Shown: positions 1 through 62,864 of the stretch, piece after piece | Numbering within the stretch: position 1 is the stretch's first letter | Layout: each line of letters opens with the position of its first letter | NCBI GenBank assembly: GCA_030248295.1 | Contig: JASANH010000776.1 | Location: 248,001 to 312,000, forward strand | Length of the DNA: 64,000 bases | Origin: Mesodorylaimus sp. YZB2_4 | Taxonomy: Eukaryota > Nematoda > Enoplea > Dorylaimida > Dorylaimidae | Direction of reading: 5' to 3' | Position numbers and translations under genes: made by a program | The notes under the pieces: model-generated | The model's input: the letters and a program-made list of their open reading frames with translations, nothing else | Told to the model about the DNA's origin: nothing | Databases searched by the model: none

Positions 1-123
1 GAGTTTTGTAAGAAATAGGGCTAAAAGATTTTCTATAGCATGCGGATTCGAAATTTGTTGCTGGTTATCGGAGGTAGATACTCATTCAGCTTAATTGGTG
101 TTTTGGTGTTTTAGATCCTTTAG

Positions 124-3100: not shown

Positions 3101-4861
3101 CTTTGGGCATATACACGCCCGCCTCGTTGCCGCATAGTGCCGCGTGTACATTTCCAAAGAAAACAGATAGTACGTACATCTTTTGCACTTTGGGCCCCAT
3201 AAACATGACGTCTTCTCCTGTTTCCTTACCCACAACCGCATTGCACCTACAAATAGATCCTTTCTCCTCGTCCGCCTAAATGATCTCCACCACCTGATCA
3301 GCCAGTATTAGCTTCAGCGCTTACAGTTCTTTCACGTATCAGTAATCTTTTAACCATAAAGCGTAGAATTTACTGTACAGCTCACTTTTTTCCTGGAAAT
3401 GCTACCCTCAGTCCTTTCCTATTTGCTCAAGTTGGCCATCTCGTTCTTTGCGTCTCCCACATTCTCCTACCATACTCATAACCAAATTCTTCAAATACTC
3501 CTAGTCTAAAAATAAAAGCCATCGCGAGACCATTAAATTCCAAGCAAAGTGATCACTGGTCAAATACCGACTCCGTCAAAACAACCTCTTATTTCACTGA
3601 GATTACACTTCATGGAGCAGTCGCAATCATGACCTCAAGCAGCCTCTCAGACACTTCAAATACAAGACTTTCCCAATGGGGCTTTCTTCAATTGTTCTCT
3701 TCTCTGCAGACCTGCCAAGCAGTGCTATGCTCGTAAATTCAACATCGATGCAAAGTTTGAGCAGACCCACCTCTTTGACAACATCCTTTCGTACATCTCC
3801 GCCTATATGTTTGGATGCTTGGTGTCAGACCAACTCAAGTCACATGAGCACAATCAGGAGCTGGCAACAAATGGATCGGCTCAATCCAACACTACACCTA
3901 CTACAACTACCACGACTGAAGCAGCTAAAAAACCTAAACCTAGTGTAGCATCTGGTGCAAAGCAAGCGGTGACATCTGCTGATCTGTTGATGACATTGAG
4001 CAGCGTCTGGCCCACCTTTTGGACGGCTGAAACAGCGGGCACCAAGTTTAGGGAGGCATCATCGATTACTTACTGTTCTGTCAACCGCTTCTAATGATGG
4101 ATCAACTGCGACGAAATATCACCTCTCTGAAACATATCACCTCTCTGAAACCTATGGCATCTGCAACAAGCGATACCGCTAGTACGACTTTCACACGAGT
4201 AGTGTCGTCGATAGCAGGTGCAAGCTCAATGCCATGTTTGTTTTCAGAAACTTTCTTTTCCAATGCAACATTTCAGATCCAACACCTGGAATCATCAGCA
4301 AAACGCAGTCATCGAAAGCAGCTGACGCAATAGATATAACTGCTAGCGCAGAATCAGGCGAAAATCACAAAATGTACAGTACTTTACGTTGAGTATAACA
4401 GATGTCCAACTCATCGCATTGTACGAGACAGCTATGGTAATGAAGGGGAAGTTATGAGCATTACAAAAAATGATTTTCAATCAGACCCCACTAACCTATA
4501 CAAAATAGTGTACAAAAAAAGTATGATGTTTAAACTCAAAGTTCTCAAATACATTTCGAGTGCGCAACCCTGGAACTATCAGGTGCATTCATAGATTCTG
4601 TGTGCTACAATTTTTTAATGATTCTACAGTGCGATGTTTTAACAAATCTTAATGGCGGATGCGATTTTGCGATGACTTTATTAGTCTGTTTCTTACTGCT
4701 CGAAAGCACGAGGCCATTTCCCCTTAAACAAAATGTGAAGACGAGAATTCTTAAAAGTGACTTTTTTGTTTCAGGTGTTGCACTAAACACATCGACAAGG
4801 CCGACAAGTGAACCCAGCTCCACAAAAACGACGTCGCCGATTGGGACAAGTGTTAGATCAG
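124..4861 (+). CDS. Exons for globular ectodomain, probable 5' part of the giant adhesion GPCR gene
   Basis: Splice sites and phases chain without conflict through exons at about 124-276, 403-557, 623-766, 830-974, 1075-1244, 1300-1585, 1642-1850, 1906-2089, 2156-2317, 2369-2476, 2539-2777 and 2833-3079, and again at 4775-4861 (phase 1 at both ends). The first exon's left edge is uncertain and no start codon or signal peptide was found, so the gene probably begins before the window. The product is an extracellular-looking protein of beta-rich modules with scattered cysteines, for example TCSSTVSCPYNSTCSSGHC near its start. It runs into a Thr-rich stretch at 2980-3079. I do not recognise the module family. 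The 4775-4861 exon is Ser/Thr-rich and its exit phase fits the acceptor at 8228, which argues that this is the N-terminus of the mucin-like receptor downstream. A separate neighbouring gene remains possible. Confidence 0.6.
3714..4333 (+). other. Ser/Thr-rich coding-like stretch with broken frames
   Basis: A good acceptor (pyrimidine run ending CTGCAG at 3713) opens a Ser/Thr-rich frame in the phase expected after the exon ending at 3079. That frame stops near 3950, while a second frame carries a clear Thr run (about 3890-3920, TTPTTTTTTEAA). A third Ser/Thr-rich frame covers 4094-4333 and contains a perfect 18-bp in-frame tandem duplication (4116-4151, HITSLK repeated). I could not find a consistent splice pattern. 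It may hold real or alternative mucin exons, or decayed ones, or carry sequence errors. Confidence 0.35.
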
Positions 4862-7800
4862 GTATAGTCATTCTACCAGATTTATAAACTGGTAAATACC
4901 AGGTATACGTATGATTTTCACTATGGAAGAGAGTACTGTAGATATGACTTACAAAATTTGTAGATATGGATACAATTTTAATATCTATTTCTCAGAAAGA
5001 TATAGATAAAGATATCAATATCCTTATCTATATCTCGTTAAAGATATCAAATATTAACAAAAGATATTAATATTGGAAACCAAAAATCAAGAAATCTTTG
5101 AAAAAATCACCTGATTTTTTCTCTCTCATCATCATCATCATATTTTATTCTTGCGCAAACGCATATGCGCACTAAGAGCACAAGAAACATAAAGCACAAC
5201 ACACATGATACTAAAATGTGAAAGTACGAAAAAGAAAAACGACATCAAGTCTGCCAATCACCTCTCTGATGATTCAAAAATGTTACAACGAGACCTGACG
5301 ATCAATTTGCGCGGCCACTTGGTCAAATATTCTCGCACCAAACAGTATACAAGTGATTCCAGCTGCGTTTGTTACCTCCAGCCACTATGCAGGCTTAGCA
5401 CAAAATTACAACGTTTGCGATTGGCAATGCTGCGAAACTGCGGGAAATTTATGGTGAATGAAAAATGCGCTTAAGTGGAGGGATTGGGGAGTTGACATCT
5501 TGTGGACGTCTTTAGCTTTCAAGCTTCCCTGAATGACTGCGGGGGGATCAGGTTGCGCGTTGGCACCAGATTCGTGGTCTGGTGGGGTAGGCGTCTGCCT
5601 CTTACATACGCCATGTGCGCGAGGCGAATGATCGACTCGCGGTCATGAGTAAGCTTTTGTGTGCAATGTACCCCTTCACCCTCGAGTGCGCATAAGAGTT
5701 TGGTGATGTTGTAGATGAACATGAGCATGAACTAGACCAGGCATATCAATACGAACGACGGAAATGAGAGGCGAGGCATGCGCCAGAGCAACCTCCTGCA
5801 ATCTTGCATATGACTAACGCTTAGCGATTGTCACCCATCGGCCATAGGTCAGCTCTTACTCACATGCTGGAAATGCAGCAGAAAAAGGGATAAAATTTTC
5901 GATAAAATTTTTATGGACAGTTTCGCACTTTAGTTGCACGAACGCGTCACTCCCGCAACTGCGGGAGGAGTGGCCCCTGGAGCGGGTAAGAAGGATTGGC
6001 TACCTAAAAAGCGGAGAGGGTTGTAGTGAAACTCTCAGGCTTCATAAGTCAAGGAGACTAAGCATAAAATTTGACTCCACCCTCGAGAAGCAACGCCGAC
6101 TTGCATTTGTGCTGGTTGCTTTTTTTGTCATTTCCTAAGTGACAATATCGTATAGAATAGATATAGTAACTCACAATCAGACTGGAGTCAAGACACAGAA
6201 ACAGGATTGAAACTAATTGAGGTGGTCGGTAAGAGCCCGCATCTCTGAGGTTACTAGTCCAGTGCTCTTAGTCCTAAGCATTGAATATCGCTAAATGTTA
6301 TCTTACTGGCGATTTTGTGTTAGCAGAATTTTCAGTCAAGGAGAAAAGTGGTTTGAGAAGTTTTCTCAAGATGGGCGTGGGAGTAGAAATGCCATTGCGT
6401 CTAATAGGCGGGAATAGACCAAATAAATTGTCTGAAATTTAGCTCAAGTGAACGTGAATGCCTTACAGAGAAAGTCGCGGGCAAGAAGCGGGAATGATTA
6501 GGTATTATTTCCAAAAAAGTCTGTTATCACAGACTCAAAACTTTTAGACCAGCCAATGCACACAGTGGAACCAGGGCTTAGGAAATGATAATGGAAATGA
6601 TATAACCGTTTTTCGTTTTTGCTAGAAGCTAGTTTGGCTCAAAACACCTGTTCCTACAACTGACGATGAGAGAATTGAGTGACTACCATACACCTTCTTC
6701 CAAACCTCTTAAAAAGAGAAACATAGAACGGAACGTGAAGCCGCGCCCATGAAATTACTCGTAAAGACCGCCTACAGATCGACCATTTTATAGTCAGAAA
6801 CTCTTACCCTCTGCTAAATCTGCTCATTTCATGAGCAGATTTTTCGAATATGTTCTCAGATATACAGGCGGCAGGAAAAACAACAAAAGCTCATTCGTCA
6901 GGATCTGTAATTCGTAAGGAACTAGCTCGTGCTCGAGTGGTCTTAACTTCTTTATCCCCAGAGTATTCCATCAGAAGCTGAAACAGAACGCTCAGGATCC
7001 GCAAGTTTTGCTGCAAGTTGTACTGCTCAGCAGTATTACCTCCACATGTAATAGAACATGTCCTGACCATGGAAACTCTTTCCACATATTTATATTCGTT
7101 CACATATTCTCAATTTATTATCAGCAAATTTATTGGTGTATTTGGTGTATGTACATACACCAATCCCATCTTCGTGAGAGCGCGCTAAGTGAGCCTAGCC
7201 AATCAAAAGCGCTGCAACTCAACCCGTTCAGTTGATGTTTCTAAACTCCGCGCCGAAAATGAAAAAAAAGAAACACCAGCGCCAGCTACTTTCGACAGTC
7301 GATAACTCAAGAGTGACTGAACCAAAAATTGATTTTTCGCAGGCTTTGCAAGATAGGTCACATCCGCTGCCATGTCAATTTTTATCAAAATCTGTTGAGT
7401 ACTCGATGAGCGACGGGTTGAAAAAGCCAGAAAAGTGATTATTTTCTGGAATAACTTTTCAGAAACTAAAGCTTTCAAAAAACGAATGCCAAAAGGCAGA
7501 TTCTGAAGATACAAGCTTTCAGAAAAACTAACATTTACACCTGTACGACCTCTGGTTGTTGCGCTAGCCTGATGTTTATCCTCCTCGTCTTCTCCCCCTG
7601 AACAAGAAATCGCGTATTCTGGAACTCGACAACGGCCGGACGGATTCGGATAAAAATTGGCTTGATTCTAGATTCGGCCGATTCTGCTAAGTGTGCAAAA
7701 AATCAAAAATTTTCGTCGAACCGTTCTCGAGTTATTAGCCGGCAAAAATCGTTCTTTAGCATTAACCCTCTGGTTGGCTGGTCTAGTCGTAAGCAGGCAC

Positions 7801-8228
7801 GCTGATACTGTATCCAGCCGCAAGCGATAAAACACCCCATCATAATGGTGGCCAGCAGGAGAGGGAACGAAAACCATCCTCTGCTGTTTCCGCTGCATTT
7901 CCAGCATGTTTCTGCTGCATACACATTTTGATGCCAGTAAATTCAATATCTCGTCAGTGAGATGAAAATAGCCATAGCAATCGGAACCCAAGAGGTATTT
8001 TGAGTTCAACTTTTAGCTTAGGCTTTTAGCGTTGTAAGTTGAAAATATTGATATCTATTATTAATATCTTAGCCGCAAAAAAATGAAGATAAAGATAAAG
8101 ATATCAAAAAGATATAGATATGAATATGGTTATTAATATCTCAAAAGATATTAATATTAATTAGATAAAGATAGACATGGATACTGATATCAACAGTAGC
8201 GGAGAGACTGTTGTAGTATATTTTTTAG
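4862..8228 (+). other. Long intron of 3.4 kb
   Basis: The donor GTATAG after 4861 and the acceptor TTTTTTAG at 8221-8228 join two phase-1 boundaries in frame. No coding sequence is supportable inside. GATATC/TATAGATA-rich AT blocks lie near both ends (4975-5075 and 8040-8170) and share the 17-bp word CAAAAGATATTAATATT (5058-5074 and 8142-8158), which hints at an inserted element or simple-repeat expansion. A perfect 12-bp hairpin (6816-6842) and a 22-bp palindrome (7142-7163) also lie here. Confidence 0.55.
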
Positions 8229-10740
8229 GTATCACTACATCGGTACTGGCAGCAACACTTACAACAGCACCGTCTACAAAAAAGCAGCCCAGTTTTGCCA
8301 CTACAATGCAAACGGGAATGGCATCAACATCTGCCAAAAAAACCCCAACAGCAAGAATGACAATCTCAACTACCACCAACTCGACAACTAGACCTCATAC
8401 AGCTTCGGTTAGACCCGATGATACAACCACACCAAGAACAGTACTTACCACAAAATCTAGAGCTACATACACAGCAAAAGCTGCACCATTTCCAACAACT
8501 ACACCCACAAAGCAACAGGTTCCTACAACAACGTCTGAAACTGCAAAATTTGTGACTATTCCAAACAACGAATCGAGCACGATAACATTAATATCTGCAA
8601 TCACGCAAACGGCAGCCATGGCAAGAGAGTCCGCATCTATTGCGCTCACCACTAATACCAAACAAGTGGAACCTCAAACGACTACAACTACTACAACCAC
8701 TGAAGCATCTACAGCTACTGCTTCTACTACGGAATCCATATCTACACCAACCAACGAAGGGATATCTTCTATTCAAACTACAACGCAGCAAACTTCTACG
8801 CTTCCTATAACCTCAAGTAAAGTCACATCCGCACCTAAACCAACAACTATGTTCATCACAAAATCTACGGGTGAGGCAGCAACAACTCTGCCCACCACAT
8901 CTCCAACAACAGCTCAGGAAGAAACCACAGTAACAACAAAATCTCGAGCAGCTAGTGAGTCAGCAACTACAACATCTACAACAACCACTGGGCCAGCAAC
9001 AACTCTAACCACAACCATGCCAACCACAGCAACTAAGATGACCACAACACCTTCAACAGCTCGTGAGGAAGCAACCACTGCAACCACTGCGGCCAGAGAA
9101 TCTCAAACAGCAGTTCATGCAGCAGCCATTACTGCCACAGCATCACAAATAACAGCCGAGGCGCCAAAAACTTCAAGCATCACATTTCCAACAACCAGCG
9201 AGAAAGAAACCACATTGACCAACAAATCTCCAGCAGCCACTGAGCCAGCATTGTCCTTAATCACAACATCGACAACTGGAGAGGAAGCAACTATTTTAAC
9301 CAGCACATCTACAATCAGTAAACAAGAAAACATACCGACAACCACATCACCAACATCAGCTCAGACAACAACGATAGCTACAACAAGCAATGATGAAGCA
9401 ACCGCTTTGACAAGCACATCTACAAAACCAGCTGGCGAGGTGCCAGCAAGTGTGACATCGTCAACAACCACGAAGGAAGCGAGTACTTTGACCAGCGAAT
9501 TTCCAGGAAGCAGTGGGGCAATAGCAAGTGTGGCACTGATGGCAACAACTGAGGAAGCGAGCACTTTCACTACTAAATCTCCAGCAACAAGTGTGACATC
9601 AACAACAACAACCGTCGAAATGAGCACTTTGACTACTGCTTCTCAAACAGCCAGTGAAGCGGCAACAAGTGTGACATCAGAAATAGCCACTGAGGAATTT
9701 TCAACTTTGACCACCGCATATTCCACAAATGGCAGGCTGGCAACAAGTGTGGTACCAGCAATGATAACTAAGGAACTGAGCACTTTGACTAACATATCTC
9801 CAACAAGAATCGAGGTGGCAGAAAGTGTGACACCCACAGCAAGGACTGAGGAAGCGACAACCTTGACAACCGCATCTCAAATGGCTAGTGAGCCGGCAAC
9901 AATTTTGACCTCGATGACAACCATTATGGAAGCAAACACTTTGACCAATACATCTTCAACAGATATTGAGGTGGCAACGATTGGGGCATCAACGACAATC
10001 ACTGAGGAAGCAAGCAATTTAACCACTGCATCTTTAGCAACTATTGTGACATCAAAAACACCCACTGACAGAGCTTCAACTTTGACCACTGCATTTCCAA
10101 CAGATGGTGGAGTTAAAACAAGCTTGGCATCTGCTACAACAACTGAGGAAGCGAGCACTTTGACTTTTGCATCTCCCACAGCTATTGAGGCAGCAACAAG
10201 TGTGGCATCAGCAACAACAACTGAGAAAGCGGTAACTTTAACCACTGCATCTCCAGTAACCACTGAGTTCGTAGCAAGTGTTGCATCAAAAACAACAACT
10301 GAGAAAGCGAGTACTTTGGCCAACGAATCTAGAGGAAGCAGTGGGGCAGCAGCAAGTGTGATGCTGATAACAACAACAACTGAGGAAGCGAGCATGCTGA
10401 CAACTGAATCTCCAGCAACCAGTGTGACATCAGAAACAACTGTGAAGATGGGCACTTTGACTACTGCACTTCCCACAGCTAATGAGGTGGCAACAAGCGG
10501 GACATCAATGACAACCGCTGAGGAAGCCAGCAAGTTGACCACTACATCTTCAGCATCTTCAGCAGGGAGAGTAACATCAGAAACAACCACTGAGGAAGTG
10601 ATTACTCTAACTACTGCATCTCCAACATCCAGTGAGGCGGCAACAAGTGTGGCATCATCAACAACCACTAGGGAATCGAGTACATCGACCACCGCATATC
10701 CCACAGCTGTTGGGGCGGCCACAAGTGTGGCATCAGCAAC
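8229..10740 (+). repeat. Mucin-like Thr/Ser-rich region with degenerate repeats
   Basis: The product is dominated by Thr, Ser, Ala and Glu with no cysteine, as in heavily O-glycosylated mucin domains. From about 9,430 a loose unit of about 45-48 codons appears, with the core E-E-A-S-T-L-T-T-A-S followed by a T-S-V-A-S-like linker. Copies diverge from one another far more than in the array that follows, so this looks like the older part of the same expansion. It lies inside the 14.2-kb exon. Confidence 0.85.
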
Positions 10741-13700
10741 AACCGCTGAGGAAGCGAGCACTTTGACCACTGCATCTTCTGCAACAGAAGTGACTTCAGA
10801 AACAACCACTGAGGAAGCGATTACTCTAACTACTTCATCTCTAACAACCGGTGAGGTAGCAACAAGTTTGACATCAGCAACAACCGCTGAGGAAGCGAGC
10901 ACTTTGACCACTGCATCTTCCGCAACAGAAGTGACTTCAGAAACAACCACTGAGGAAGCGATTACTCTAACTACTTCATCTCCAACAACCGGTGAGGTAG
11001 CAACAAGTTTGACATCAGCAACAACCGCTGGGGAAGCGAGCACTTTGACCACTGCATCTTCTGCAACAAGAGTGACTGCAGAAACAACCACTGAGGAAGC
11101 GATTACTCTAACTACTTCATCTCTAACAACCGGTGAGGTAGCAACAAGTTTGACATCAGCAACAACCGCTGAGGAAGCGAGCACTTTGACCACTGCATCT
11201 TCTGCAACAGAAGTGACTTCAGAAACAACCACTGAGGAAGCGATTACTCTAACTACTTCATCTCTAACAACCGGTGAGGTAGCAACAAGTTTGACATCAG
11301 CAACAACCGCTGAGGAAGCGAGCACTTTGACCACTGCATCTTCTGCAACAAGAGTGACTACAGAAACAATCACTGAGGAAGCGAGCACTTTGACCACTGC
11401 ATCTTCTGCAACAGAAGTGACTTCAGAAACAACCACTGAGGAAGCGATTACTCTAACTACTTCATCTCTAACAACCGGTGAGGTAGCAACAAGTTTGACA
11501 TCAGCAACAACCGCTGAGGAAGCGAGCACTTTGACCACTGCATCTTCTGCAACAGAAGTGACTTCAGAAACAACCACTGAGGAAGCGATTACTCTAACTA
11601 CTTCATCTCTAACAACCGGTGAGGTAGCAACAAGTTTGACATTGACAACAACCGCTGAGAAAGCGAGCACTTTGACCACTGCATCTTCTGCAACAGAAGT
11701 GACTTCAGAAACAACCACTGAGGAAGCGATTACTCTAACTACTTCATCTCTAACAACCGGTGAGGTAGCAACAAGTTTGACATCAGCAACAACCGCTGAG
11801 GAAGCGAGCACTTTGACCACTGCATCTTCCGCAACAGAAGTGACTTCAGAAACAACCACTGAGGAAGCGATTACTCTAACTACTTCATCTCCAACAACTG
11901 GTGAGGTAGCAACAAGTTTGACATCAGCAACAACCGCTGAGGAAGCGAGCACTTTGACCACTGCATCTTCTGCAACAAGAGTGACTGCAGAAACAATCAC
12001 TGAGGAAGCGAGCACTTTGACCACTGCATCTTCCGCAAGAGAAGTGACTTCAGAAACGACCACTGAGGGAGCGATTACTCTTACTTTTGCATCTCCAACA
12101 ACAAGTGAGGTGGCAACAAGTAAAGCATCAACAACCACTGGGGATTCGAGTACATCGACCACTGCTTATCCCACAGCTATTGAGTTGGCCACAAGTGTGG
12201 CATCAGCAACAACCACTGAGGAAGCGAGCACTTTGACCACTGCATCTTCCGCAACAAGAGTGATTTTAGAAACAACCACTGAGGAAGCGATTACTCTAAC
12301 TACTTCATCTCCAACAACCAGTGAGGTAGCATCAAGTTTGACATCAGCAACAACCGCTGAGGAAGCGAGCACTTTGACCACTGCATCTTCTGCAACAGAA
12401 GTGACTTCAGAAACAACCACTGAGGAAGCGATTACTCTAACTACTTCATCTCTAACAACCGGTGAGGTAGCAACAAGTTTGACATCGGCAACAACCGCTG
12501 AGGAAGCGAGCACTTTGACCACTGCATCTTCTGCAACAGAAGTGACTTCAAACCCATAGAAACAACCACTGAGGAAGCGATTACTCTAACTACTTCATCT
12601 CTAACAACCGGTGAGGTAGCAACAAGTTTGACATCAGCAACAACCGCTGAGGAAGCGAGCACTTTGACCACTGCATCTTCTGCAACAGAAGTGACTTCAA
12701 AAACAACCACTGAGGAAGCGATTACTCTAACTACTTCATCTCTAACAACCGGTGAGGTAGCAACAAGTTTGACATCAGCAACAACCGCTGAGGAAGCGAG
12801 CACTTTGACCACTGCATCTTCTGCAACAGAAGTGACTTCAGAAACAACCACTGAGGAAGCGATTACTCTAACTACTTCATCTCTAACAACCGGTGAGGTA
12901 GCAACAAGTTTGACATCGGCAACAACCGCTGAGGAAGCGAGCACTTTGACCACTGCATCTTCTGCAACAGAAGTGACTTCAGAAACAACCACTGAGGAAG
13001 CGATTACTCTAACTACTTCATCTCCAACAACTAGTGAGGTAGCAACAAGTTTGACATCAGCAACAACCGCTGAGGAAGCGAGCACTTTGACCACTGCATC
13101 TTCTGCAACAAGAGTGACTGCAGAAACAATCACTGAGGAAGCGAGCACTTTGACCACTGCATCTTCCGCAAGAGAAGTGACTTCAGAAACGACCACTGAG
13201 GGAGCGATTACTCTTACTTTTGCATCTCCAACAACAAGTGAGGTGGCAACAAGTAAAGCATCAACAACCACTGGGGATTCGAGTACATCGACCACTGCTT
13301 ATCCCACAGCTATTGAGTTGGCCACAAGTGTGGCATCAGCAACAACCACTGAGGAAGCGAGCACTTTGACCACTGCATCTTCCGCAACAAGAGTGATTTT
13401 AGAAACAACCACTGAGGAAGCGATTACTCTAACTACTTCATCTCCAACAACCAGTGAGGTAGCATCAAGTTTGACATCAGCAACAACCGCTGAGGAAGCG
13501 AGCACTTTGACCACTGCATTTTCCGCAACAGAAGTGACTTCAGAAACAACCACTGAGGAAGTGATTACTCTAACTACTTCATCTCCAACAACCGGTGAGG
13601 TAGCAACAAGTTTGACATCAGCAACAACCGCTGAGGAAGCGAGCACTTTGACCACTGCATCTTCCGCAACAGAAGTGACTTCAGAAACAACCACCGAGGA

Positions 13701-16700
13701 AGCGATTACTCTAACTACTTCATCTCCAACAACCGGTGAGACAGTAGAAAGTGTGGCATCAGCATCAACAACATGGGAAGCGAGTACTTTGGTTAACGCA
13801 TCTCAAGGAAGCAGTGGGGCAGCAGCAAGTGTGACACTGATGACAGCAACTGAGGAAGCGGGCATTTTTACAACTGAATCTCAAGCAACCAGCGTGACAT
13901 CAAAAGCAACTGTGGAGATGGGCACTTTGACTACTGCACTTCCAACAGCTAGTGAGGTGGCAGCAAGTGGGACATCAGTGACAACTGCTGAAGAAGCGAG
14001 CACGTTGACAACTACATCTTCAGCAGGAAGAGTAATATCAAAAACAACCACTGAGGAAGCGATTACTCTTACTTTTGCATCTCCAACAACCAGTGAGGTG
14101 GCAACTAGTAAAGCATCAACAACCACTGGGTATTCGAGTACATCGACCACTGCTTATCCCACAGCTATTGAGTTAACCACAAGTGTGGCATCAGCAACAA
14201 CCACTGAGGAAGCGAGCACTTTGACCACTGCATCTTCCGCAACAAGAGTGATTTTAGAAACAACCACTGAGGAAGCGATTACTCTAACTACTTCATCTCC
14301 AACAACCGGTGAGGTAGCAACAAGTTTGACATCAGCAACAACCGCTGAGGAAGCGAGCACTTTGACCCCTGCATCTTCCGCAACAGAAGTGACTTCAAAA
14401 ACAACCACTGAGGAAGCGATTACTCTTACTTTCGCATCTCCAACAACCAGTGAGGTGGCAGCAAGTGTGGCATCATCAACAACCACTGGGGAATCGAGTA
14501 CATCGAACACTGCACCTACCTCAGCTAGTGACATGTCAACAAGTGGAACATCAATGACAACCACTGAGGAAGCAAGCACTTTGACCGCTGCATCTCCAGC
14601 AACAAGAGTGATTTCAGAAACAACCACCGATGAAGCGATTACTCTAACTACTGCATCTCCTGCAACCAGTGAGGCAGTAGCAAGTGTGGCATCAGCAACA
14701 TTGACTGAGGAAGTGAATTCTTTAATCACCGCATCTGCCACAGCTAGTGAGGCGTCAACAAGTGTGGCATCATCAACAACCAGCAAGGAAGCGAGCACTC
14801 TGACCATGGCATCTCAAACAGTCAATGAGGGTGCATCAATTGTGACATTGATGATAGCCACTGAGGAAGTGAGCTCTTTGTCTATCACATCTTCAGGAAC
14901 AAGTGTGACATCGGAAACAACCACTGAGGAAGCGAGAACTTCAGCTACTTCACCTCTAACTAGCAGTGCGTATCAGGGATCTGCTGAAGCTGCAAGCACT
15001 GTTAATACATCTTCTACCACTGGTGAGCTAACATCGAGTATGACCAGTACATCTTTTCCCACTATTGCCGCTTCATCTCAGGAAACTGATGAAGCAGTAA
15101 CTCTTTTTACCTCTGATGTAGCGACGACTATTGTGACGATCAGTAGAACTGCCAAGGCGGCAACTAAAGCAATTACCACTTCTACCAGTGATGAGGCGGC
15201 GGCCACTGTGATTAGTACAACAGAACTAGAGGATAATTTATCAACTCTAATCTCTGAAGATGGTATCATATCAACTGTAGAACCCTGCTGCAGCACCTCG
15301 AACTTCCCTGCAGCTGTTATTGACCCTTCAACATCATGCTCACCCACTTCTGAAACAGCTTACTCCAGTTCCAGCGCATCAAAGGCTACTTCCACAGTCG
15401 TATTCGAAAGCGATGCAACGATTATGAGTTCTACGACTGCGCCGCTACTCGCTTTATCGCCTTTTCTACCTACAAATATACTGGCAACCCCTTCAAGTGT
15501 GCCAGTAGGAATCTTAACCCCAGAAGTCAGTCTGAGTTCATCAGATTTCCCAATTTCTATATCTTCTACAGACAAACTTAATCAAATTACTACAAGTTTA
15601 TCATTGCTCGAATCTGCATCTGCTTTGGGTGGAATGACTCAGACTGATTCAACCGACTTACAACCAGTCACTGGTGGATTCAGCACGCTGCAAACGGGGG
15701 CAAGCTCGTCTGGGCAGCTTGAAAAGACCACGGAATCTTTGGCTCCAGATCACACTCTCAAAGAAGCTGGTAGCACAATTTTTACCCCCACAGGAAGAAG
15801 TGTGAGTGAGAGCTCCACAGCGTCACCCTCTGTGCCAGACACACCGCCAAATAAGGTAGAGCTATCGTTATCGATTGTCACCAGCACTATCAGCGATGTG
15901 TCGACATCAGCAGCTGGAACGAGCGTCAATCAAGAAACTACGGGTATATCCTCTGTGGCTAATTTCACTGCACCTGTTTCAGTCACCCAACCGCAACTTA
16001 CTTCATCGTCAGCAGGCATTACTGCTTCCCTGGTATCGACTCCAACGACAGCATTGCACATCACGACAGACGGACCAACTAGTGCCATAGAGCTATCTCC
16101 ATCAGGGATCACAAGAGTTAGTACTTCGACAGCGACAACTGAAAGGAGCGCTGGCCAAATAACTCTTCCCTACATGGCTCATTCCACTAACTCTATTCTG
16201 GAATCCACTTTCTTGCCAAGTGTATCTGAAAAAATGTCGCCCACCACGACAGAGCCTACTTCAGCCGCGGCACATGGTCAAGAAACCTTTGAAACAGCGG
16301 GTCCAATAGTCAGCCAGGAAACGTCGATGGAAGAGCAAGGGTCAACGACTGCGCAGCGAATACCAGGGTGGTCGCCAACTTTGCTCGAAACTGAGTCTCA
16401 AACTACAATCTCACAAGAGTCTAGTGACTTGCCACTAAGGTCGACCACTTTAGCTGATGTAATAAGTTCATCGATGAACAAAGAGTGGAGTTCCAGCGCC
16501 CGACCTACAATTACAACATCAACGCCTACATTAAAAGCTGCTTCTCCTACTTCTCTTCCAGCCACTACAATCCATTCCATCCAATCAGAGTCATCCACTT
16601 CATTCATCCCATCTGAATCTGATTCAACTGAAGCAGCCCCGAAATTGCTGACTGTTTCGAACATATTTCAATATACTCACACTAACACAACAGTTTCTGA

Positions 16701-19700
16701 TTCCTGGTCACCAACTGCAGCGATCGAATTCAGCAGCCAAGTTCCAGCCGAGCTGGCTCAACATTCGACCGGCATGGGTACAAGCACTACTTCTCAGTAT
16801 CCTACAGTTGGAAGTGATACAGAAATGGCCACTGCAGCAACCATAAAAGAAACACGTGGCACTGAATTAGCTTTAACTCAAATTGAACTCACCGCCACGG
16901 TTGATTTTACTGACTTTATTGAAGCCACAGCGACTAAGACATCGCCTGTCAGAATCCATCCAATAGAGGCCACCAGATCATCTACTTCTGAAGAGGACAG
17001 AGGTGAAGGGCAGCAGCGCCCATCGACTACAAGGCCAGGCTCCCCAGACAAGTCTGCTGTCGAATCTAGTATAACGCAAACTCACACGGCACCTAGCCAG
17101 CAAAGCATGACTTATAAAACTGAATTGGCTTCCAATGCACAGACTGCATCAGATTCTACCTTGAGGCCAGGCCCGTCATCGATCTCTACTGCGACATATG
17201 AGCCATTTGTCGAAAGCACTGTGGCCGCTTCATCTTTTCCTGAATCAAGCGAGATGCCCAAACACACTACACCTAGCATAGCTGATACTACTTACAACAG
17301 TGAGATCAGCAAAGCCACTGATCGTGAGACCGAAACAGGAGCGGGAAGTGTGGTACTAACGACAAATCTGGTCTCATCGAAGAAAGTACCCACTGAATAC
17401 CTCACAATAAACATGGACGATGGAGCGGGCGGCGAGGAAGGAAGATCAAGAATACCAAGCGCAACGACGCTTGGCTCATTTTTAACCGCGCAAACCAGTT
17501 TTCATGCCAGTGAACCGCCCGCTTCGGCAGAATTTGTTTCTACTGGATTGATGAATACAGAAGTCAACAGTCAAGGCGTTTCAGAAACAGACCGTAGAAT
17601 TGAAGATGGAGAACGGAGTTTAACTCGGAGTACCATTGCTGCAGAAGGTAAAACCACAGACAAAGGACTTGGTGCTAGTGAATCAGCTATACATACGATC
17701 ATAATTTCTGGAAAAGCTGAGACCATGACCGCAGAACTGACAACTGAAAGGGTCACTAACGATAGCGGAGGTGGCGTGGGTAAAAGAACTTCAACAGTGA
17801 CTTCCAATGCTGATTTACTGTCTTCAACTACAGAATCTGTGCTCGATTTAACTAAACTACCTGTCAGCAAAGAAGATACAGAAATGACATACACAGATGT
17901 GCAAATGATCGCGAGTACCATCGGCATCGAAGGTGGAGAAGGTGCTGGTGGATTGACACAGGGTTTTACTGCAGCTCCTCTGACAGCAGAGACCAATGTA
18001 CCTACTGCCGTCGTGTCATCTTCAGACAACATTATAACAACGGCAACTATGAGTGATTACACCATAATGACGGACAGTGGAAATGGCGAGGGAGGAAGAA
18101 CTCCATCGACCATTCACTCAACTACAGCACTATATGCAACCGTTGCACCTGATGTCAACCGTGCTGAGTCATCGATCAGTAAAGAACCCATTTCAAAAAT
18201 TGCAACAAAACAAGCTGTCAGTGGAAGCACCACGGCATTCGATACTGGTGAAATTGCAGGGGTGCAAAAAGCTAGCTCTTTCACGAACATGGAAACCAGT
18301 TTCACTGAATCGATTTCTGAATATCCTAGTGGATCTAGTGGAGACACAGAACCTGTTACTGATGGTGCTATACCCATTGATAGCGACAGTAATCAGGCTG
18401 GAAGGACTAGTTCCCCTAAAGAACCAGAAGTCGACTTGACTAAGTCATCAGTCAGGGTAGAAACAGTTTCAGCACAAGCAACCACTGGAAGCACCTTTGA
18501 ATTTGACTTCGGAGCAGGCGCATGGGCAAAAACACCTAGTTCTTCAGTTCAGCCTTTGAATGTGGATTCCGCAGAGCCGATTTTAGAATCAACATCCGCT
18601 GCCAAAATTACAGCAGAGAATAGAACTGAAGGTACTACTCTCATTGATAGCGGTGGTGATCAGGCTGGAAGAACGCCAACATCCACTTTCCCGCCGAGCA
18701 AAGTCGATTTTACAAAGCCATCCATCAGTGATGAGCCAGTTTCAGAAATTGCGATAGAACAAGCAATCAGCGGAAGCACTAATGAACTTGATAGTGGAGC
18801 AGGCGCAGGGGCACGAACACCCAGCTCTTCAGGTTCGCCTTTGAACGCGGAAGCAGATTCTTCTGAACTGATTTTAAAATCAACCTCTTTCATCGAAATT
18901 ACCAGAACTGATGGTAATACGTTCGTTGACAGTGGAGGAAATCAGCTTGAAAGAACGCCACCATACACTTTTCCGAGTGCACCGGAATTCGATCTTACAA
19001 AGTCATCCGTCAGTGAAGAGCCCGTTTCAGAGAGTGCAACAGTGCAACCCATAAATGGTAGCACGATTGGATTTGATAGTGGGGCAGGGGGAGGGGCACG
19101 AACGCCCAGCTCTTCAGCTTCGCCTTTGAATGGGGAAACCGATTCCGCTGAGCCGATTTTAGAATCAACATCCGCTTCCAAAATTACAGTGGAAACTAGA
19201 ACTGAAGGTACTACTCTTATTGATAGTGGTGGTAATCAGGCTGGAAGAACGCCAACATTCACGTCCCCGCCAAGTAAAGTCGATTTTACAAGGTCATCTG
19301 TCAGTGAAGAGCCCATTTCAGAAAGTGCAACAGCGCAACTCATAAATGGTACCACCATTGGATTTGATAGCGTAGCAGGGGGAGGGGCACGAACGCCCAG
19401 CTCTTCAGTGTCGCCTTTGAATGTGGAAATCGATTCCGCTGAGCCGATTTTAGAATCAACATCCGCTGCCAAAATTACAGCAGAAACTAGAACTGAAGGT
19501 ACTACTCTTATTGATAGTGGTGGTAATCAGGCTGGAAGAACGCCAACATTCACGTCCCCGCCAAGTAAAGTCGATTTTACAAGGTCATCCGTCAGTGAAG
19601 AGCCCATTTCAGAGAGTGCACCAGCACAGCCCATAAATGGTACCACCATTGGATTTGATAGCGGAGCAGGTGGAGGGGCACGAACGCTCACGTCCTCAGT

Positions 19701-22700
19701 TCCGCCTTTTTATTTGAAGACCAGTTTCACTGAATTTAATTTAGAGTCAACACCTGGTGTCGAAGTTACTTCAGGAACAAGTACTGATGATGCTACACTT
19801 ATTGATAGCGGTGGCAATCATGCTGGCAGAACGTCAGCGACAATTTCCGCAAAACGCTCATATACCACTGAATCAAAGTCCGACTTCACTGACACATCAA
19901 GCGCCATACCCTCGCTTTCTGAATGGACGACACTAACGATAAGACCTGTCGATACAACTACCACTATCTTCGACAGCGGAGCGGGCACAAAACAGCGAAC
20001 ACCTGGCTCTTCACCTGATAAACTTTCCACAATCGAAACTGGAACAGTGTTACCTGACTCAGAATTGACTTCCATTGAAAGCACGATGGTGAACGTTGTT
20101 AGCAAAGGCAGTACAGAGATAGACAGCGGAATGGGTGGTGGCGGACAAACAAGAATGCCGATTGTCACCCCTGCGCAAGAGGCTTCGACCACAAAGGCGG
20201 AGGCCGAGCCGACGGGAATCGAAGCGTCTACAGAAACAATGCCAGGAGCTCCCGGATGGATTACGTCTGATAGTGAAGGTAGTGCAGGAGCACGCAGCCT
20301 ATCCGCGGAAAGCAGTTTTGTTAGTGAGACAGTGCCCGCTGAGAGCGTAAGTGGACGCGCCACAGACGTTGCCAGCGGCGGTGGCCAAGCCACAAAGACA
20401 CCGGCATCCCCATACGCAAGCACACCATCATCAGACATGACGCCAAGGACAGTCACCGACGAGATTACGACTGGACTTAATAGTGGTGCTGGCGCTGGTG
20501 CATGGAAGCAAAGCTCCATCGCAAGCCCTCTATCGACCAAAGAAACAAATTTGGACACTAATTCAACTATTTTACCTGAACCACCAAGTTCGGTTTCTTC
20601 GTTCACACTGATGGCGTCAACCTTAAGTGGACACGCCGTCACTGCTATGGAAACAGAGCACTACACGCAATCCAGCGTGCCTCAGAAGAGCACTGGTTAC
20701 GAAAATATAACAGAAGTTGCTAATAAAACACGCCAACCGAGCGACACTGACCGAACAATGCAAATGGCTGCTGTGTCGGACACCAGCAGCCTCGCATCAA
20801 CCCAACGCCAAGTCGTCATCGCTGATCAGACAATTCAACAATATGAAACGAGCCACTTCCGAACGGGCGTTGCCTCATCTGGCCAAACAGACCAACATCA
20901 TACGGCTGGAAAAGTTACTGTAGTATCAGATCAACATTACTTGAGCAGTGACTCAGCTGAAGGCACTGAAGCTGGCATCACATCGCTGGAACTGCAATCT
21001 GTTAGTCATTCCTCAACTGGCCCCGGTCGCGAACAAACAGAAGCAAGCACTTTGGCAACGCCTTTCGACTCTCGCACGGATACGGCAGGACTAGAACCAC
21101 GTTCGACATTATCCCAAATGCCTGAAACCGCTTTGACAGAGCACATCTCAACCCCAGCAAGAGTACCGTCGACGACAGAAGCAGACATATTTGGTGGTGA
21201 AGGCATTGGAACTGACAAACCCAGAACGGCGACGACGACAGGATGGGACCTCGAAACATCTCAGACACAGAAGCTTCAGACTGATGCCACTGAAAGTGCT
21301 AATACATTTTCTGCGTCCACAAAGACGGAGACAGTCGTTTCGTCGCAAGCGCCGTTCACAAAAAGCGGAGAAACCATTGGCTGGGAGACAATTGCAGTAT
21401 CAAAAGACACAAGTGATTCGTCAACAGAAAGAGTGTCTGAAACGACGGGCATGCCTGAGACAAGCACAAAAGAATACACTAAACATCCAACCTCTTCCTC
21501 TATAATCGCCGATACTGTAAGTGAAATTGCGGCGCCGCTCCCAGAGACAACTTCAATGGCAACGGCAGATGGAAAAACAGAGCATATGGCTGCAGTATCA
21601 TTGACCCATTTGGTTAATACAGGATCTCTCGAGCCTGAGCGGTCAAGCAAACCAGGAACGGCATCCCTGTACTCTTCAGCGACTTCAGAAAGTGCAGCTG
21701 ACTTCGCCACTGCACGAGCCACAAGTGCTAAGCCAGAATCCAAACCTGCTACGCCGACAGAAAAAGACTCGGCGAGCACTGCAGAATTCAACAGTCAAGA
21801 AACAGTGTCTGTGGTAACCACTATAGAGGATATGGTGCATTCAACGGTTTTGACGATAATCACGGAACCTGAAACGAGCCCGATTGGAGGTACCTCTGAG
21901 TCAGGTATTTCTTCAGAATCAGCCAGTTCGATTCTTCAATCAAAATCAGCCTCCCAAAGCTCATCAGTTAGCGCTATCGAAGAACAGACAACACTTAATG
22001 CGACACCAGAGGCCAGCTGGACTGTGCCTATTGTGGAAACAGCGAAAACCTTATTTGCAGACTTCGACGCAGAGACAACAGCCGCTACAAAGCCAATTTT
22101 GGCTAGTCAGCTGTCAACAAGCCAAGAGTCAGAAACCTTACATAATCAAACAGCTGCGTCAGAGGACAATACCAGATCAGTTTCATTTGCACTAACAGAT
22201 TTTGTCACCAGAATCACGTCATCTCCATTGATCAAGTCTACTGCAACTGTAACGGCAGGATTGAAGGTGGGCACCACTATAATCCTGGGCGTAGCGACCA
22301 TCAACGAATCATGCAGTAATGGAGAATCTTGCAATGCTGGGTCTGTCTGCTACAACGAAACTAAGACATGTCGCTGCCCGTCATCAACTTATGAATACCG
22401 TCCTGAATCAGCCAGCGAAGAGCAGGCGATGTGCCGAGAATGTAAGTGTGCCATGATTCAGTTGTCTTACGTGCATGACCCTACTTGTTTTAGATTCCAA
22501 GCATAAACAAGAATGTTCGAACACTGTCCTGTGCGAACCTATGCTGCTATGCAACAACACGGATTTCACCTGCTACTGTCCGCCAATCACAGCTTACATA
22601 AGGGATGATGGCAAGTGCGACAATGCTACCTTGATATGGGTCAACGGGACGTGCAATAATCGATCGCATGTGTGTGACCCTGCCTCTCGATCTGTATGCA

Positions 22701-25700
22701 ATGGCGGCCTGTGCACATGCGTTCGTCCGTACGCCTATAATAAGGTCTACGATCAATGCATGCTAGTCGACTCACTGAAAGCACAAGAAGACCTGACGCA
22801 TGATCAACCCTGCTCGTCCGTCCTGGCATGTAATTCTAGCCTTGGCTTGGGATGTGTCAATGGATATTGCAAGTGTGTAAATAGTTCAAGGAAGTTCAGG
22901 TAAGAAACTAAGCCAGATATTGCCTTGAAAAACAGCGCTTGATCGCCCTTTTCAGGGACGGTTTTTGCCTGGGCGATGGCGAATGTGCATTTGCTGACCA
23001 AATCTACGAATTCACCATGCAAAGCTGTCGTTTTCCAACATACGGGGAGAAGTGTATTTCCAAATGTGCATCGCCCTATGCTTGCATCAAAGGAGTCTGT
23101 TCTATGCCGAGGCTGGGTGAGCCGTGCGATGGAGTGTGTACAACGGAAAACTCCATTTGTGTCTCTTTGAAATGTTCGTGTAAACAAGGATACGAAGCTT
23201 CTAATTCGGGCAGCGGCTCATTCTGTGTCAAATCACTACCACTGCCTGGCTGGTCATGCGCAAAAGGGAATCGCAGCTGCGGTTATGGATCGTTTTGTGA
23301 TACCGAGACTTACATTTGTAAATGTCCAAAGGGGCAAGAAGGATCGAGCGGACAGTGCAAGGCAATACAAAGGCAAGTGGGTGGATCGTGTGAAAATGGA
23401 GAAGAATGCGGTAACTTTTCAAAATGCGAAAGCAAGACCAAACTTTGTCGATGTCCACTTGGATCTTACCAGAGCACGGATGGAAAGACTTGTATACCAA
23501 GTAAACTCGGATGACCGTTTTTATCTCTACCTCGTTCAGATACCAGACGACGGCTTTTTCAGGATACTGTCCCGCGGACGGAAAATGGCCCGAAACCCAA
23601 GCAAATACCATATCATCATTCGATTGTCCCAAAGGAGCCAAGGGCTCGGTCATTCGCTTCTGTGAACCAGAAGCCGTTTGGAATGACCCCATCGACAGCT
23701 GTATATCATCATCGGCGCGTGATATTGGTTTCACTTCCGCAGCTTTAGATAGTATGGAGAAAAACCCTGAACTTTTCCTAAATCTTTTGAACATGGTGTT
23801 GAATCTGGCTATGCCTAACTCTGGAGATGGGATGTCATCAGGAAATGACTCGGATCCATTTTTGGAATCCAATTTGCGTTTGTTCTGTCAGCTCATGCAG
23901 CACAATCCGCTATTGCAACATCCAGATAAGGTGGCTTCAGATGAAATGAAGATAATGACAAATGTAAGCGAGGGTGCCACCATCCCAAGGTGAGCGTGAC
24001 GTCTGCTACTTTTTAGACAACCTACAACTTGGCAAATGAGTTGCTGCAGCGGCTACTGATAACCAGAAATTCGTCCATCAAGGTGGGTACTTGCACTGTA
24101 TATCTATTCCGGATCTTTCTATATCTCGGCGCCATAATACTGCAAACCATGGATTTCGCCTTACCTTTGTACTGTAGAATAAATGCCAGTGTCTGTAATA
24201 GTTCCACTGCGTGTAGGTGCAGGAAGCAGAATATATTGCAGGAAAATCCTGCTTCTACGAGATTCTATCCTGTGGTTTCGATTATAGAGCATCGTCGACT
24301 TCGTGTACTGCGGGGAGCAATTGGCCGACGCTCTGACAAAAATCGAGATGGCTTCAATCGATAATGATGACGTGACAAATAAACAGAAAAGAAGCGTCTA
24401 TTCAGAGACCAATTTGATAAGTAAGCTTTGTTTCTGTCACATAAGTCTATGGCTGATGCCAAGCTTGCTGCAGGCAGCCAAGGTCAGATTGTGGCTCCCG
24501 ATCAAAAAGCTACCCTCTCAATGTTAAATGACGATGGAAAAGCTGGATGCGGTTATACATCTGGGAATGACCCAGCTAAGCAAGGTACTTATCGTTAGCT
24601 CTGCAGTGTCTACATTGTGGTTTCACAGGCACCAGCACGCCATGCATTAACAAAGGTACAGTAGCACGTTTAGGTTCTCTCCCAGTGCATGATCGGTTCG
24701 GCATGTCTTGTTCAATCTTCTCCATAAACATGACCTATGTCTCGAACCACACGCCGCCTGCTGGATGCATGTACAAGTTGGCAGATAAGGTAATTTCTGT
24801 GACGACGACCACAGAGGACGTGTTCAAGGATCCCAATTTCATGGTCATGTTAAAATTCCCAATCCCAAAAGTAATTGCCGCTTGATATTGCATCAAAGTG
24901 CGCTGATCAGATTTGTTCTTTTTAGAGGCTTCCATTGAGCAAGTTGACATGCCTTTACCTTGTGAAAAATGCCAGCACTGATGCAGAGTATGCCCAGTTT
25001 TTTTCGTGGCGCTATTCTCTTTTGCCACTCTTGCATGACTTTTAGGAGCTTCAGTTCCGAAGGCTGTTCCATTCTCTCATCGACGAACAAACAAGCCGTT
25101 TGCGCATGTAGTCACACCACTAGTTACGTGCTGCTGATGGAACTGGAGGTATTTTGACTGATTGATTTTGGAGGAGACCAGAAACTTTGATATGATTGTG
25201 AAAAGCATTTTCAGATACCACGCTGGGATGAATACATTATCAGATGGCTACTGATTGTCATGCTATCACTCTCATTGGTTTGCTTACTTTTGACTGGACT
25301 TGCACTGCTATACGTCAGGTAAGGATTCAGCTGACGCAGCTGGCTCGCGCTTCTGACGGGTCTTTACACGCAGGCGATCCCACACTCAAAGAATATTCAT
25401 TATGGTGAACATTGTGGTTGCTCTGTTCTTTGCCAAGGTCATATTACTGAGCGTGGTCGTCGAGCAGTCATATCAAGGCGTAAGTACCTTGATCGGCACT
25501 CCTGTTTATGCAGCAGGCAGTGTGTCATGTTGTCTGATCTAGGTTTTCTGCCAAATCAGCGCCCTACTCATGCACTTCTTGTACTTGGCAGCACTGAGCT
25601 GGATGCTGTGCTATGCTGTGAATTTGTTACAAGTCTCCTTCACTCATCCCGATGCGGAAGTGAGTATGCATATACGTAGCTTCAATGGCTTATAACATCT

Positions 25701-26482
25701 GACATGAACTGATTCATAGGCCATCTTCCGTTCACCTATTCCAACAGTGATCTATATCGTTTTTGGATATGGATTACCTGGCGTAGTAGTTGTGGTATCA
25801 GCCGCTTGGAAGTGGCGCGACTATGGCGACTCGCAATAGTAAGTTTGGATATGTGTATGATTCGTGGATAAGACTCTAAAGTATTATTTCTTTCAGCTGT
25901 CTGTTGTCATCAATCGATGGGATCCTGTACGCATTCTTCGGGCCTGCCCTGTTCGTCGTGTTTTGCCACCTGATTATGATCCCAGTGACGTGGTCCAATT
26001 ATTATCGTAAACGGGAGGAATACTTAAACTATGTGCTTCACACAAAGGTTCTCAGGTAGGTCATCACCGCCTAATCCATATCTTACGCTGGTCGACTGGT
26101 CTGCTGTTTTAGAGGTGGTGTCAAGTTTTCCTCCATTTCAATAAGCGTAATGGCCCTAAAGTGGATCTTCGGCTATTTCGTGATGGCTGCTTTCCACGAA
26201 ACAATTTTGTGGTATATATTCGCTGTATTTAATGGAATCGAGGGGCCCGCTATCATGATCGCTGTCTTGATATTCAACGACGAAGTAAGTTAAGACCGCC
26301 TGGCGCTCTTGAACTTTTCCTCCATGCTGTCATTCAGGTCTTCGAAGCGGTTGACCATCGATTCCGTCAAATTAATGCAGTAGAAGTACGTACAGTATGC
26401 AACTCTGTCTTCACAGCTTTGCTGTATAACCCTAATAAATTTATTGCAGGACATAAGACCCAGACTCCAGTACTATTCATGA
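8229..26482 (+). CDS. Giant mucin/proteoglycan-like adhesion G protein-coupled receptor
   Basis: Exons: 8229-22441, 22494-22899, 22956-23500, 23563-23963, 24017-24082, 24288-24420, 24474-24584, (24629-24655 optional), 24686-24870, 24926-24996 or -25005, 25046-25148, 25215-25318, 25374-25479, 25543-25659, 25720-25838, 25897-26055, 26113-26284, 26338-26385 and 26450-26482, all phase-consistent. Domain order: Thr/Ser-rich mucin region, D-S-G-x-G repeat region, Cys-rich EB/EGF-like modules, HormR, GAIN with GPS (CACSHTTSYVLLM), seven helices, short tail. Class B2 hallmarks are visible: HFLYLAALSWML in TM3, GYGLPGVVVVVS in TM4, YCLLS in ECL2 and ALKWIFGYF in TM6. Family knowledge: such receptors self-cleave at the GPS and signal through a tethered agonist. 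One 8-nt insertion at about 12,551 breaks the frame of the big exon. An in-frame ATG at 8177 followed by a hydrophobic run could be an alternative start. Confidence 0.85.
10741..13745 (+). repeat. Near-identical 141-bp coding tandem array
   Basis: The unit is 141 bp (47 codons), running from AITLTTSS through TTGEVATSLTSATTAEEAS to ATEVTSETTTEE. I count about 17 copies here, most differing by only a few bases, with another at about 14,270. Variant units (RVTAETITEEAS, RVILETTTEE, GDSSTSTTAYPTAIE) recur in the same order at about 11,969-12,380 and 13,102-13,510, an offset of 1,133 bp, so several units were duplicated together. The frame break at 12,551-12,559 sits between the two blocks. Unit length is a multiple of three, as expected for a coding minisatellite. 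Confidence 0.9.
12551..12559 (+). other. 8-nt frame-breaking insertion in the repeat array
   Basis: All comparable units read ACTTCAGAAACAACC or ACTTCAAAAACAACC. Here the sequence is ACTTCA, then AACCCATA, then GAAACAACC. The insertion brings a TAG into the upstream frame and shifts the downstream frame by two, splitting the mucin frame in two. A 98-bp intron (12462-12559, donor GTGAGG, acceptor CCATAG) would restore the frame exactly, but it has no pyrimidine tract. An assembly scar inside a hard-to-assemble array is at least as likely. Confidence 0.75.
13746..17400 (+). repeat. Degenerate mucin repeats passing into non-repetitive Ser/Thr-rich linker
   Basis: Loose copies of the 141-bp unit continue to about 14,960. 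The sequence then becomes non-repetitive but stays rich in Ser, Thr, Pro and Ala. The only cysteines in the long Cys-free stretch are a small cluster at about 15,281-15,352 (EPCCS and, about 14 residues on, TSCSP), which might form an interchain or local disulfide. No other domain is recognisable. Confidence 0.75.
17400..20600 (+). repeat. D-S-G-x-G repeat domain, candidate glycosaminoglycan attachment region
   Basis: A motif D-S-G-x-G-x-G-x-R-T recurs about every 48-49 codons, alternating with IDSGGNQAGRTP. The clearest copies form 291-bp units (97 codons) at 18,634-19,700. Intact Ser-Gly-x-Gly occurs at 17764, 18076, 18793, 19078, 19660, 19975, 20125, 20374 and 20482; one copy at 19369 has lost it (S-V-A-G). 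Most have Asp immediately before the Ser. Established knowledge: acidic residues next to Ser-Gly-x-Gly form the usual xylosyltransferase site that starts chondroitin or heparan sulfate chains. The proteoglycan role is inferred from this pattern. Confidence 0.75.
20600..22290 (+). other. Non-repetitive Ser/Thr/Glu-rich stalk
   Basis: This stretch continues the long exon with Ser, Thr, Glu and Ala-rich sequence, no cysteines and no recognisable repeat unit. It joins the DSGxG domain to the Cys-rich modules that begin near 22,300. By composition it is another O-glycosylated, extended stalk. Confidence 0.7.
22300..23500 (+). other. Cys-rich EB/EGF-like modules of the receptor
   Basis: Across three exons the frame carries many cysteines in short loops, for example SCSNGESCNAGSVC, CRCPSSTYEY, SVCNGGLCTCV, CVNGYCKCV and CKCPKGQEG. 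Spacing resembles the EB modules of invertebrate extracellular proteins more than classical EGF, and about seven or eight modules fit. They place a folded, disulfide-rich spacer between the stalk and the HormR/GAIN unit. Confidence 0.8.
23563..25148 (+). other. HormR, GAIN and GPS region of the adhesion GPCR
   Basis: The exon at 23563 encodes a HormR domain: YCPADGKWPETQ, FDCPKGAKG, then FCEPEAVWNDPIDSC, with the expected Cys and Trp spacing. GAIN-like sequence follows over seven or eight small exons, ending in EGCSILSS and the GPS CACSHTTSYVLLM. In this family cleavage falls after the residue that follows His; here that gives HT/T, a permissive variant of the usual HL/T or HL/S. The donor near 25,000 is ambiguous (24996 or 25005). 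Confidence 0.8.
24629..24655 (+). other. Possible 27-bp optional microexon in GAIN
   Basis: TTTCACAG precedes and GTACAG follows a 27-nt stretch that is phase 1 at both ends. It would insert nine residues (GTSTPCINK) between the exons ending 24584 and starting 24686. The frame is kept whether it is included or skipped, so alternative splicing is possible. Sequence alone cannot decide. Confidence 0.35.
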
Positions 26483-32421: not shown

Positions 32422-32450
32422 ATTGCTGTTTCCTTCAGCAGCAGTGAAAA

Positions 32451-32486
32451 CACTGACCAGAGAGAGGCTGAAAGGCTGCTTTTATA
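32451..32486 (-). promoter_or_regulatory. TATA box and initiator of GPCR copy A
   Basis: On the minus strand TATAAAAG (32486-32479) is followed 32 bp later by TCAGTG (32456-32451), a good TATA-to-Inr spacing. The predicted start site is about 32 bp before the ATG. The same arrangement is kept in copy B. Confidence 0.7.
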
Positions 32487-42720: not shown

Positions 42721-42744
42721 ATTGCTAGCAGCAGCGAGCAAGAA

Positions 42745-42780
42745 CTCTGACTAGGGAGAGCCTGACGGGCTGCTTTTATA
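42745..42780 (-). promoter_or_regulatory. TATA box and initiator of GPCR copy B
   Basis: TATAAAAG (42780-42773) is followed 32 bp later by TCAGAG (42750-42745) on the minus strand, matching copy A in sequence and spacing. Predicted 5' leader is about 28 bp. Confidence 0.7.

Positions 42781-60683: not shown

Positions 60684-62864
<2,181 letters not shown>

Follow-up and report, generated by a model that had tools for sequence, protein, structure and literature searches.

The window analysed here, 64,000 nucleotides from the nematode Mesodorylaimus sp. YZB2_4 (contig JASANH010000776.1, positions 248,001 to 312,000), carries on its forward strand what appears to be a genuine and unusual adhesion G-protein-coupled receptor (GPCR) gene, probably larger than first noted and interrupted by one frame break in the assembled DNA. 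According to the stop-to-stop reading and the splice chain, positions 12502–26482 make up one open frame of 18 exons, joined by 17 GT-AG introns of 44–205 nt that lie between 22442 and 26449 and closed by a stop that ends at 26482. Along this open frame, a giant Ser/Thr-rich exon is followed by EB modules, a HormR-like domain, a GPS and a class B2 seven-transmembrane (7TM) domain.

The original prediction had read HormR, GAIN/GPS and class B2 7TM domains at this locus and named a hidden Markov model search as the check. That search, run with Pfam on the last 1029 residues of the chain, placed 7tm_2 (E 9.9e-26; 90.9 bits, cut-off 20.6), EB (E 6.3e-8, in four stretches) and GPS (PF01825; E 1.7e-5, and 2.2e-6 in a 380-residue HormR–GAIN fragment) above their cut-offs. 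The remaining two domains fared less well: HRM emerged only from the separate scan of the 380-residue fragment and stayed under its cut-off (E 1.1e-4; 23.0 bits against 26.2), and GAIN gave no Pfam match in either the 1029-residue C-terminal part or the fragment. In the PDB sequence search, the HormR/GAIN fragment aligned to CELSR1 (8vy2; whole-sequence E 1e-8, best single stretch 0.0014), and the C-terminal part matched the solved receptors ADGRE5, ADGRL3 and ADGRD1 among 22 matches, the best of them being 8ikj (ADGRE5; E 1.1e-29). The EB-like Cys modules occupy 22311–23500 (the last stretch of the giant exon, up to 22441, together with exons 22494–22899 and 22956–23500), the HormR-like domain, the GAIN region and the GPS (CACSHTTSYVLLM) lie at 23563–25148, and the 7tm_2 domain with a short tail covers 25215–26482. 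The GPS-region sequence SHTTSYVLLM, read from the exon chain, agrees with what we take to be the consensus for GPS cleavage and a tethered agonist, and both autoproteolysis and agonist activity are predicted from it. The identity of the chain as an adhesion GPCR of class B2 is supported at the sequence level, and a complete GAIN domain is likely.

The stalk ahead of these modules amounts to about 4,700 residues as assembled, and its Ser/Thr-rich, Cys-poor composition and 141-nt repeats agree with the earlier description of a tandem-repeat mucin ectodomain. Its first part (8229–12550), with tandem units of 141 nt, which is the main repeat unit of the Ser/Thr-rich exon, has a Ser plus Thr content of 47.8% over 1440 residues and no Cys at all; its second part (12559–17500) has 42.9% over 1647 residues and three Cys. 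A further Ser/Thr-rich portion of the stalk extends over 20500–22310. What counts against a mucin in the strict sense is the low proline content, 3.3% and 4.3% in the two mucin parts and 3–6% across the stalk, so that the Pro-rich composition of Pro/Thr/Ser (PTS) mucins was not found in the mucin parts. Given this low proline content, we call the stalk mucin-like and not a PTS mucin of the classical kind; it is predicted to be O-glycosylated and extended.

The DSG part of the stalk (17500–20500), which consists in part of a 291-nt tandem repeat at 18565–19833, contains 12 DSG sites, seven of them exact DSGxG and the other five DSGG[D/N] with no second Gly, plus one NSGAG. Compared with 500 shuffles of this 1000-residue part, [DE]SGxG was found seven times (shuffled mean 0.17, maximum 3), an excess that is partly inflated by sites that are copies inside the 291-nt repeat, and SGxG was found nine times (mean 1.40, maximum 6), whereas the 22 plain SG fall within the shuffled range (mean 15.2, maximum 26). 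The stalk had been proposed to be a proteoglycan with serial Ser-Gly-x-Gly; the seven DSGxG above chance speak for this proposal, but the E/D-G/A-S-G motif given for chondroitin attachment in Caenorhabditis elegans (PMC8418075) does not occur in the four stalk segments, where shuffled means of 0.06–0.42 make a count of zero not unusual in itself. As an argument from motifs, this hints only weakly at a proteoglycan.

The gene probably begins near position 40, upstream of the start at 8229 noted originally, a span that would have overlooked an N-terminal region. The candidate first exon at 40–73, with an ATG that could open a signal peptide, is tentative: it is the nearest of the 30 ATG/donor pairs that passed and ranked tenth of the 12 best by hydrophobicity, most of these being tied because the hydrophobic stretch falls in the next exon. 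It is followed by 12 hand-picked exons in open frame with GT-AG borders (115–276, 403–557, 623–766, 830–974, 1075–1244, 1300–1585, 1642–1850, 1906–2089, 2156–2317, 2369–2476, 2539–2777 and 2833–3079), by a Ser/Thr-rich linker exon running from phase 1 to phase 1 (4775–4861), and by a proposed 3.4-kb intron (4862–8228) containing a multi-copy repeat at about 6590–7800. Read together, these 14 upstream exons stay open throughout and connect to the mucin exon at 8229 with matching phase. Their main product, an N-terminal region of about 750 residues encoded at 115–3079, contains Cys, is probably folded and ends in about 40 T-rich residues. Its similarity to F5/8 type C is weak (E 0.0018, or 0.0011 when a fragment was scanned; neither reaches the Pfam cut-off), the other Pfam matches that failed their cut-offs were BiPBP_C (0.077), Laminin_N (0.098) and DUF7107 (0.46), and no PDB sequence matched it at E up to 10.

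With splice models trained solely on the 17 downstream introns, the donors of the 14 upstream introns rank within the top 0.2–12.4% of background sites and the acceptors within the top 0.0–11.1%; the acceptor at 4774 stands at the very top (0.0%) and that at 8228 in the top 0.3% (2173 background AGs). Among eight models of the linker, 4775–4861 has the highest Ser plus Thr fraction (0.48, compared with 0.36 for 4775–4807 and at most 0.26 for the others). Several points weigh against the upstream extension. The exons were picked by hand from an automatic chaining, over the 20 kb upstream and the window start, that was far too permissive; the introns that make the join are long, at 1695 and 3367 nt; their donors, at 3080 and 4862, rank only moderately (top 12.4% and 11.4%), and a phase-1 donor with a higher score lies at 3170 (top 1.9%); and the shorter linker 4775–4807 has a greater splice sum than 4775–4861 (17.7 vs 16.0). 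In a control, 24 of the 32 blocks of 300 nt in the giant exon contained a frame-neutral GT-AG pair of at least 6.3, the lowest sum among the 17 real introns, and sums there rose to 16.8. Splice scores alone are therefore unspecific and prove little, and introns within the giant exon may exist. Both this control and the better donor at 3170 weaken the upstream join, and the exact ends of some upstream exons are provisional; 2921–2977, for instance, could alternatively be an intron.

An alternative that draws on some of these points, which we consider possible though rather unlikely, places the start of the receptor at 8177 or close to it and assigns exons 115–3079 to a separate upstream gene. 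In the open reading frame (ORF) beginning at 8165, a Met at 8177 precedes a hydrophobic run (TVVVYFLGITTSVLAA) that reads on into the mucin exon, the upstream ORF at 2833–3276 could finish at its own stop, and the long distance with a multi-copy repeat in between, together with the mediocre donors at the joins, would fit two genes. On the other hand, this Met lies in AT-rich, repeat-like sequence, the presumed signal peptide would open with acidic residues, and the high-ranking, phase-compatible acceptor at 8228 and the Ser/Thr-rich linker exon favour splicing from upstream. A junction of the 14-exon upstream region with the mucin exon is the likely arrangement.

Two further observations concern the proposed introns themselves. 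Within the 1.7-kb intron, another T-rich open stretch at 3885–3960 (TTPTTTTTTEAAKK) could be a further or a decayed exon. In the 3.4-kb intron, the repeat at 6590–7800 gave 126 matches in the genome from the best 40 of 2302 candidates (query 4950–8240), and AT-rich repeats flank it at about 4978–5074 and 8044–8191.

The phase-consistent chain originally drawn from 8229 to 26482 holds from 12502 onward and is broken at 12551–12558, since the ORFs 8165–12559 and 12502–22506 lie in different frames. The break consists of eight extra bases, found by the ORF reading and the duplication alignment, at the point where the two copies of a 1126-bp tandem duplication meet (11425–12550 and 12558–13683); these copies show 14 differences (98.8% identity), with one junction base ambiguous; the next best spacing reached 91% identity in ungapped 1-kb blocks over 9400–15000. 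The break counts against the single-gene model, and so does the failure of an intron to bridge it: with donors at 12300–12559 and intron lengths of 38–250 nt, the best splice sum was 2.5, compared with 6.3–19.3 for the 17 real introns. Free drift on both sides after the duplication would be expected to leave about 2.6 stops in 14.2 kb, and none was observed; with a probability of 0.073 for finding none, this lack of stops is only a weak hint that the break is young. Most likely, the break does not reflect the gene's normal state but an error in assembling this repetitive array, or a recent allele of it; its position exactly at the duplication junction supports this reading. It would be improbable that we are dealing with a dying or null allele, in which the break is real and fixed and the mucin and the receptor are no longer translated together: the assembly does carry the break, the 14 differences per 1126 bp permit some age and the missing stops indicate youth only weakly, but both frames are open with no other stop, and neither the splice sites nor the domains downstream are damaged.

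Where the stalk joins the receptor, the first EB-like Cys module sits in the 3′ end of the giant exon, ahead of the donor AAT|GTAAGT at 22442, and further Cys modules resume in phase after the 52-nt intron 22442–22493; no start with a signal peptide was seen by eye in the interval that separates the stalk from the 7TM domain. Because a Cys module crosses this strong in-phase intron and no such downstream start was seen, it is very likely that one gene encodes both the mucin-like ectodomain and the 7TM domain, and the original claim that the two are joined is well supported by the sequence. That they are instead separate genes, in different transcripts or a nematode operon, is highly improbable: read-through of the first intron would indeed meet a stop at 22504, but the EB modules span that intron in phase behind a strong donor, and inspection by eye gave the downstream part no signal-peptide start of its own.

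On balance, and with somewhat better than even confidence, we read the locus as a single nematode adhesion GPCR gene at about 40–26482, whose product would carry, from the tip inward, the Cys-containing N-terminal region, the mucin-like stalk, the EB modules, the HormR domain, the GAIN/GPS region and the 7TM domain, and in which force on the stalk would expose a tethered agonist. What can be read off the DNA is the exon chain from 12502 with its EB modules, GPS and 7TM domain; on this we build the glycosylation, extension, anchoring and signalling that we infer for the receptor. With the pitch of 2.5 Å per residue given for mucins (PMC10687090), a stalk of about 4,700 residues could reach about 1.2 μm. 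The tip may grip the apical matrix, a cuticle precursor or another cell, and the stalk would carry pull or shear to the GAIN domain, which could then release the tethered agonist TSYVLLM onto the 7TM domain. The apical matrix is a plausible binding partner, and nematode apical matrices are described as including mucins and chondroitin proteoglycans (PMC7712855).

The genome search covered 145 Mb in 1067 contigs, with only the best candidates scored in the copy searches. Among these candidates no close second copy of the C-terminal part was found, three of 17 matches lying off the locus (best E 2.7e-11, 27–39% identity), nor one of the N-terminal part, for which all 11 matches lay at its own locus. 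An exon-by-exon genome search with 7tm_2 gave 47 matches, and the receptor locus was not among them. EB modules are common in this genome (148 matches from the best 150 of 317 candidates), and Col_cuticle_N, presumably the nematode cuticle collagen family, gave 133 matches. Another receptor in the genome (L001), which we take to be latrophilin-like, has the GPS CNHLTTFAVLMD.

Elsewhere in the window, two intronless rhodopsin-family (7tm_1) GPCR genes lie on the reverse strand at 31393–32481 and 41692–42750. They are 98.8% identical over 345 residues and 97.2% over 1119 bp of DNA, which makes them another near-identical duplication in the window besides the 1126-bp one, and a partial third copy occurs at 39640–40087 (87–88% DNA identity). 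Outside the receptor locus, the Pfam scan covered 10 of the 182 ORFs of at least 70 residues; two ORFs at 53379–54972 have immunoglobulin (I-set) domains, and 61074–61685 is a GMC oxidoreductase exon (PF00732, E 6.2e-28). In an open frame of 810 residues on the reverse strand (56440–58869), Ser, Gln, Pro and Ala are abundant and KIAEAE-type repeats occur; Pfam gave nothing for it at E up to 0.01. Scans of the window for tRNA and Rfam families found nothing. In a long contig of the assembly (L038; G000:C73:251816-256168), a copy of what we take to be mitochondrial cox1 is directly followed by what is presumably nad4, with an inverted cox1 piece alongside.

The receptor shares features with several known systems. 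Like LAT-1 and LAT-2, it would be an adhesion GPCR with a GPS and a 7TM domain, and LAT-1 also has HormR and GAIN; the RBL lectin domain of the LAT receptors had no Pfam match in the receptor parts scanned (the C-terminal part, the 380-residue fragment and the N-terminal region). In the PDB sequence search, the HormR/GAIN part came closest to the CELSR/FMI-1 type (8vy2), whose cadherin, laminin G and EGF domains had no Pfam match above cut-off in the receptor parts just named. With the ADGRE family it has in common small Cys modules ahead of the 7TM domain, and its best overall PDB match is ADGRE5, but the modules are EB instead of EGF and the stalk is far longer. As in the chondroitin proteoglycans of C. 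elegans, Ser-Gly sites with an acidic neighbour occur in a nematode protein; unlike them, as far as they are described in PMC8418075, it lacks E/D-G/A-S-G in the four stalk segments.

A close parallel is human ADGRG4 (GPR112), which has a pentraxin-like tip, a mucin-like Ser/Thr stalk at residues 279–2244, a predicted SEA domain, a predicted HRM, a GAIN and a 7TM domain, and which has been proposed as a shear sensor (PMC10687090). It is this precedent that, by analogy, lends support to the force mechanism considered here. The original prediction held that no such receptor was known; mucin-stalked ADGRG4 is a precedent for it, although the combination of a tandem-repeat mucin with a serial Ser-Gly part was not found in the open-licence papers examined, and among those listed neither was an adhesion GPCR combined with an EB module. 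It is a tentative and rather doubtful idea that a far-reaching force sensor of the apical matrix, built like ADGRG4 with a folded tip and HormR/GAIN/7TM, evolved separately in a nematode lineage, with a mucin stalk of over 1 μm and a Ser-Gly part carrying glycosaminoglycan. If the receptor is real, nematodes would have a further type of adhesion GPCR beyond the three described for C. elegans, namely LAT-1, LAT-2 and FMI-1 (PMC13197933), its existence would suggest that the mucin-stalk force-sensor layout proposed for ADGRG4 arose more than once, and a simple animal group would become available for asking whether a long glycosylated stalk passes force to GAIN. The surprise would be tempered by the lineage-specific adhesion GPCRs that are common elsewhere, such as in Ciona, where 24 of 30 were unclassified (PMC2396169).

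By its domain content, the receptor would belong to none of the LAT, FMI and ADGRG4 types, because Pfam detected in it neither a lectin or cadherin domain nor a pentraxin or SEA domain; for the pentraxin-like tip and the SEA domain this holds in the C-terminal part, the 380-residue fragment and the N-terminal region. In contrast to ADGRG4 as described in PMC10687090, it carries EB modules and a repeat-bearing DSG part, and its stalk is over twice the length. Both have an N-terminal region, here probably folded, on a very long Ser/Thr stalk followed by a HormR-type domain (predicted in ADGRG4), a GAIN domain (likely here) and a 7TM domain. On the features tested, the nematode receptor would not be a member of the ADGRG4 subfamily, which it nevertheless appears to resemble in layout and in its proposed working.

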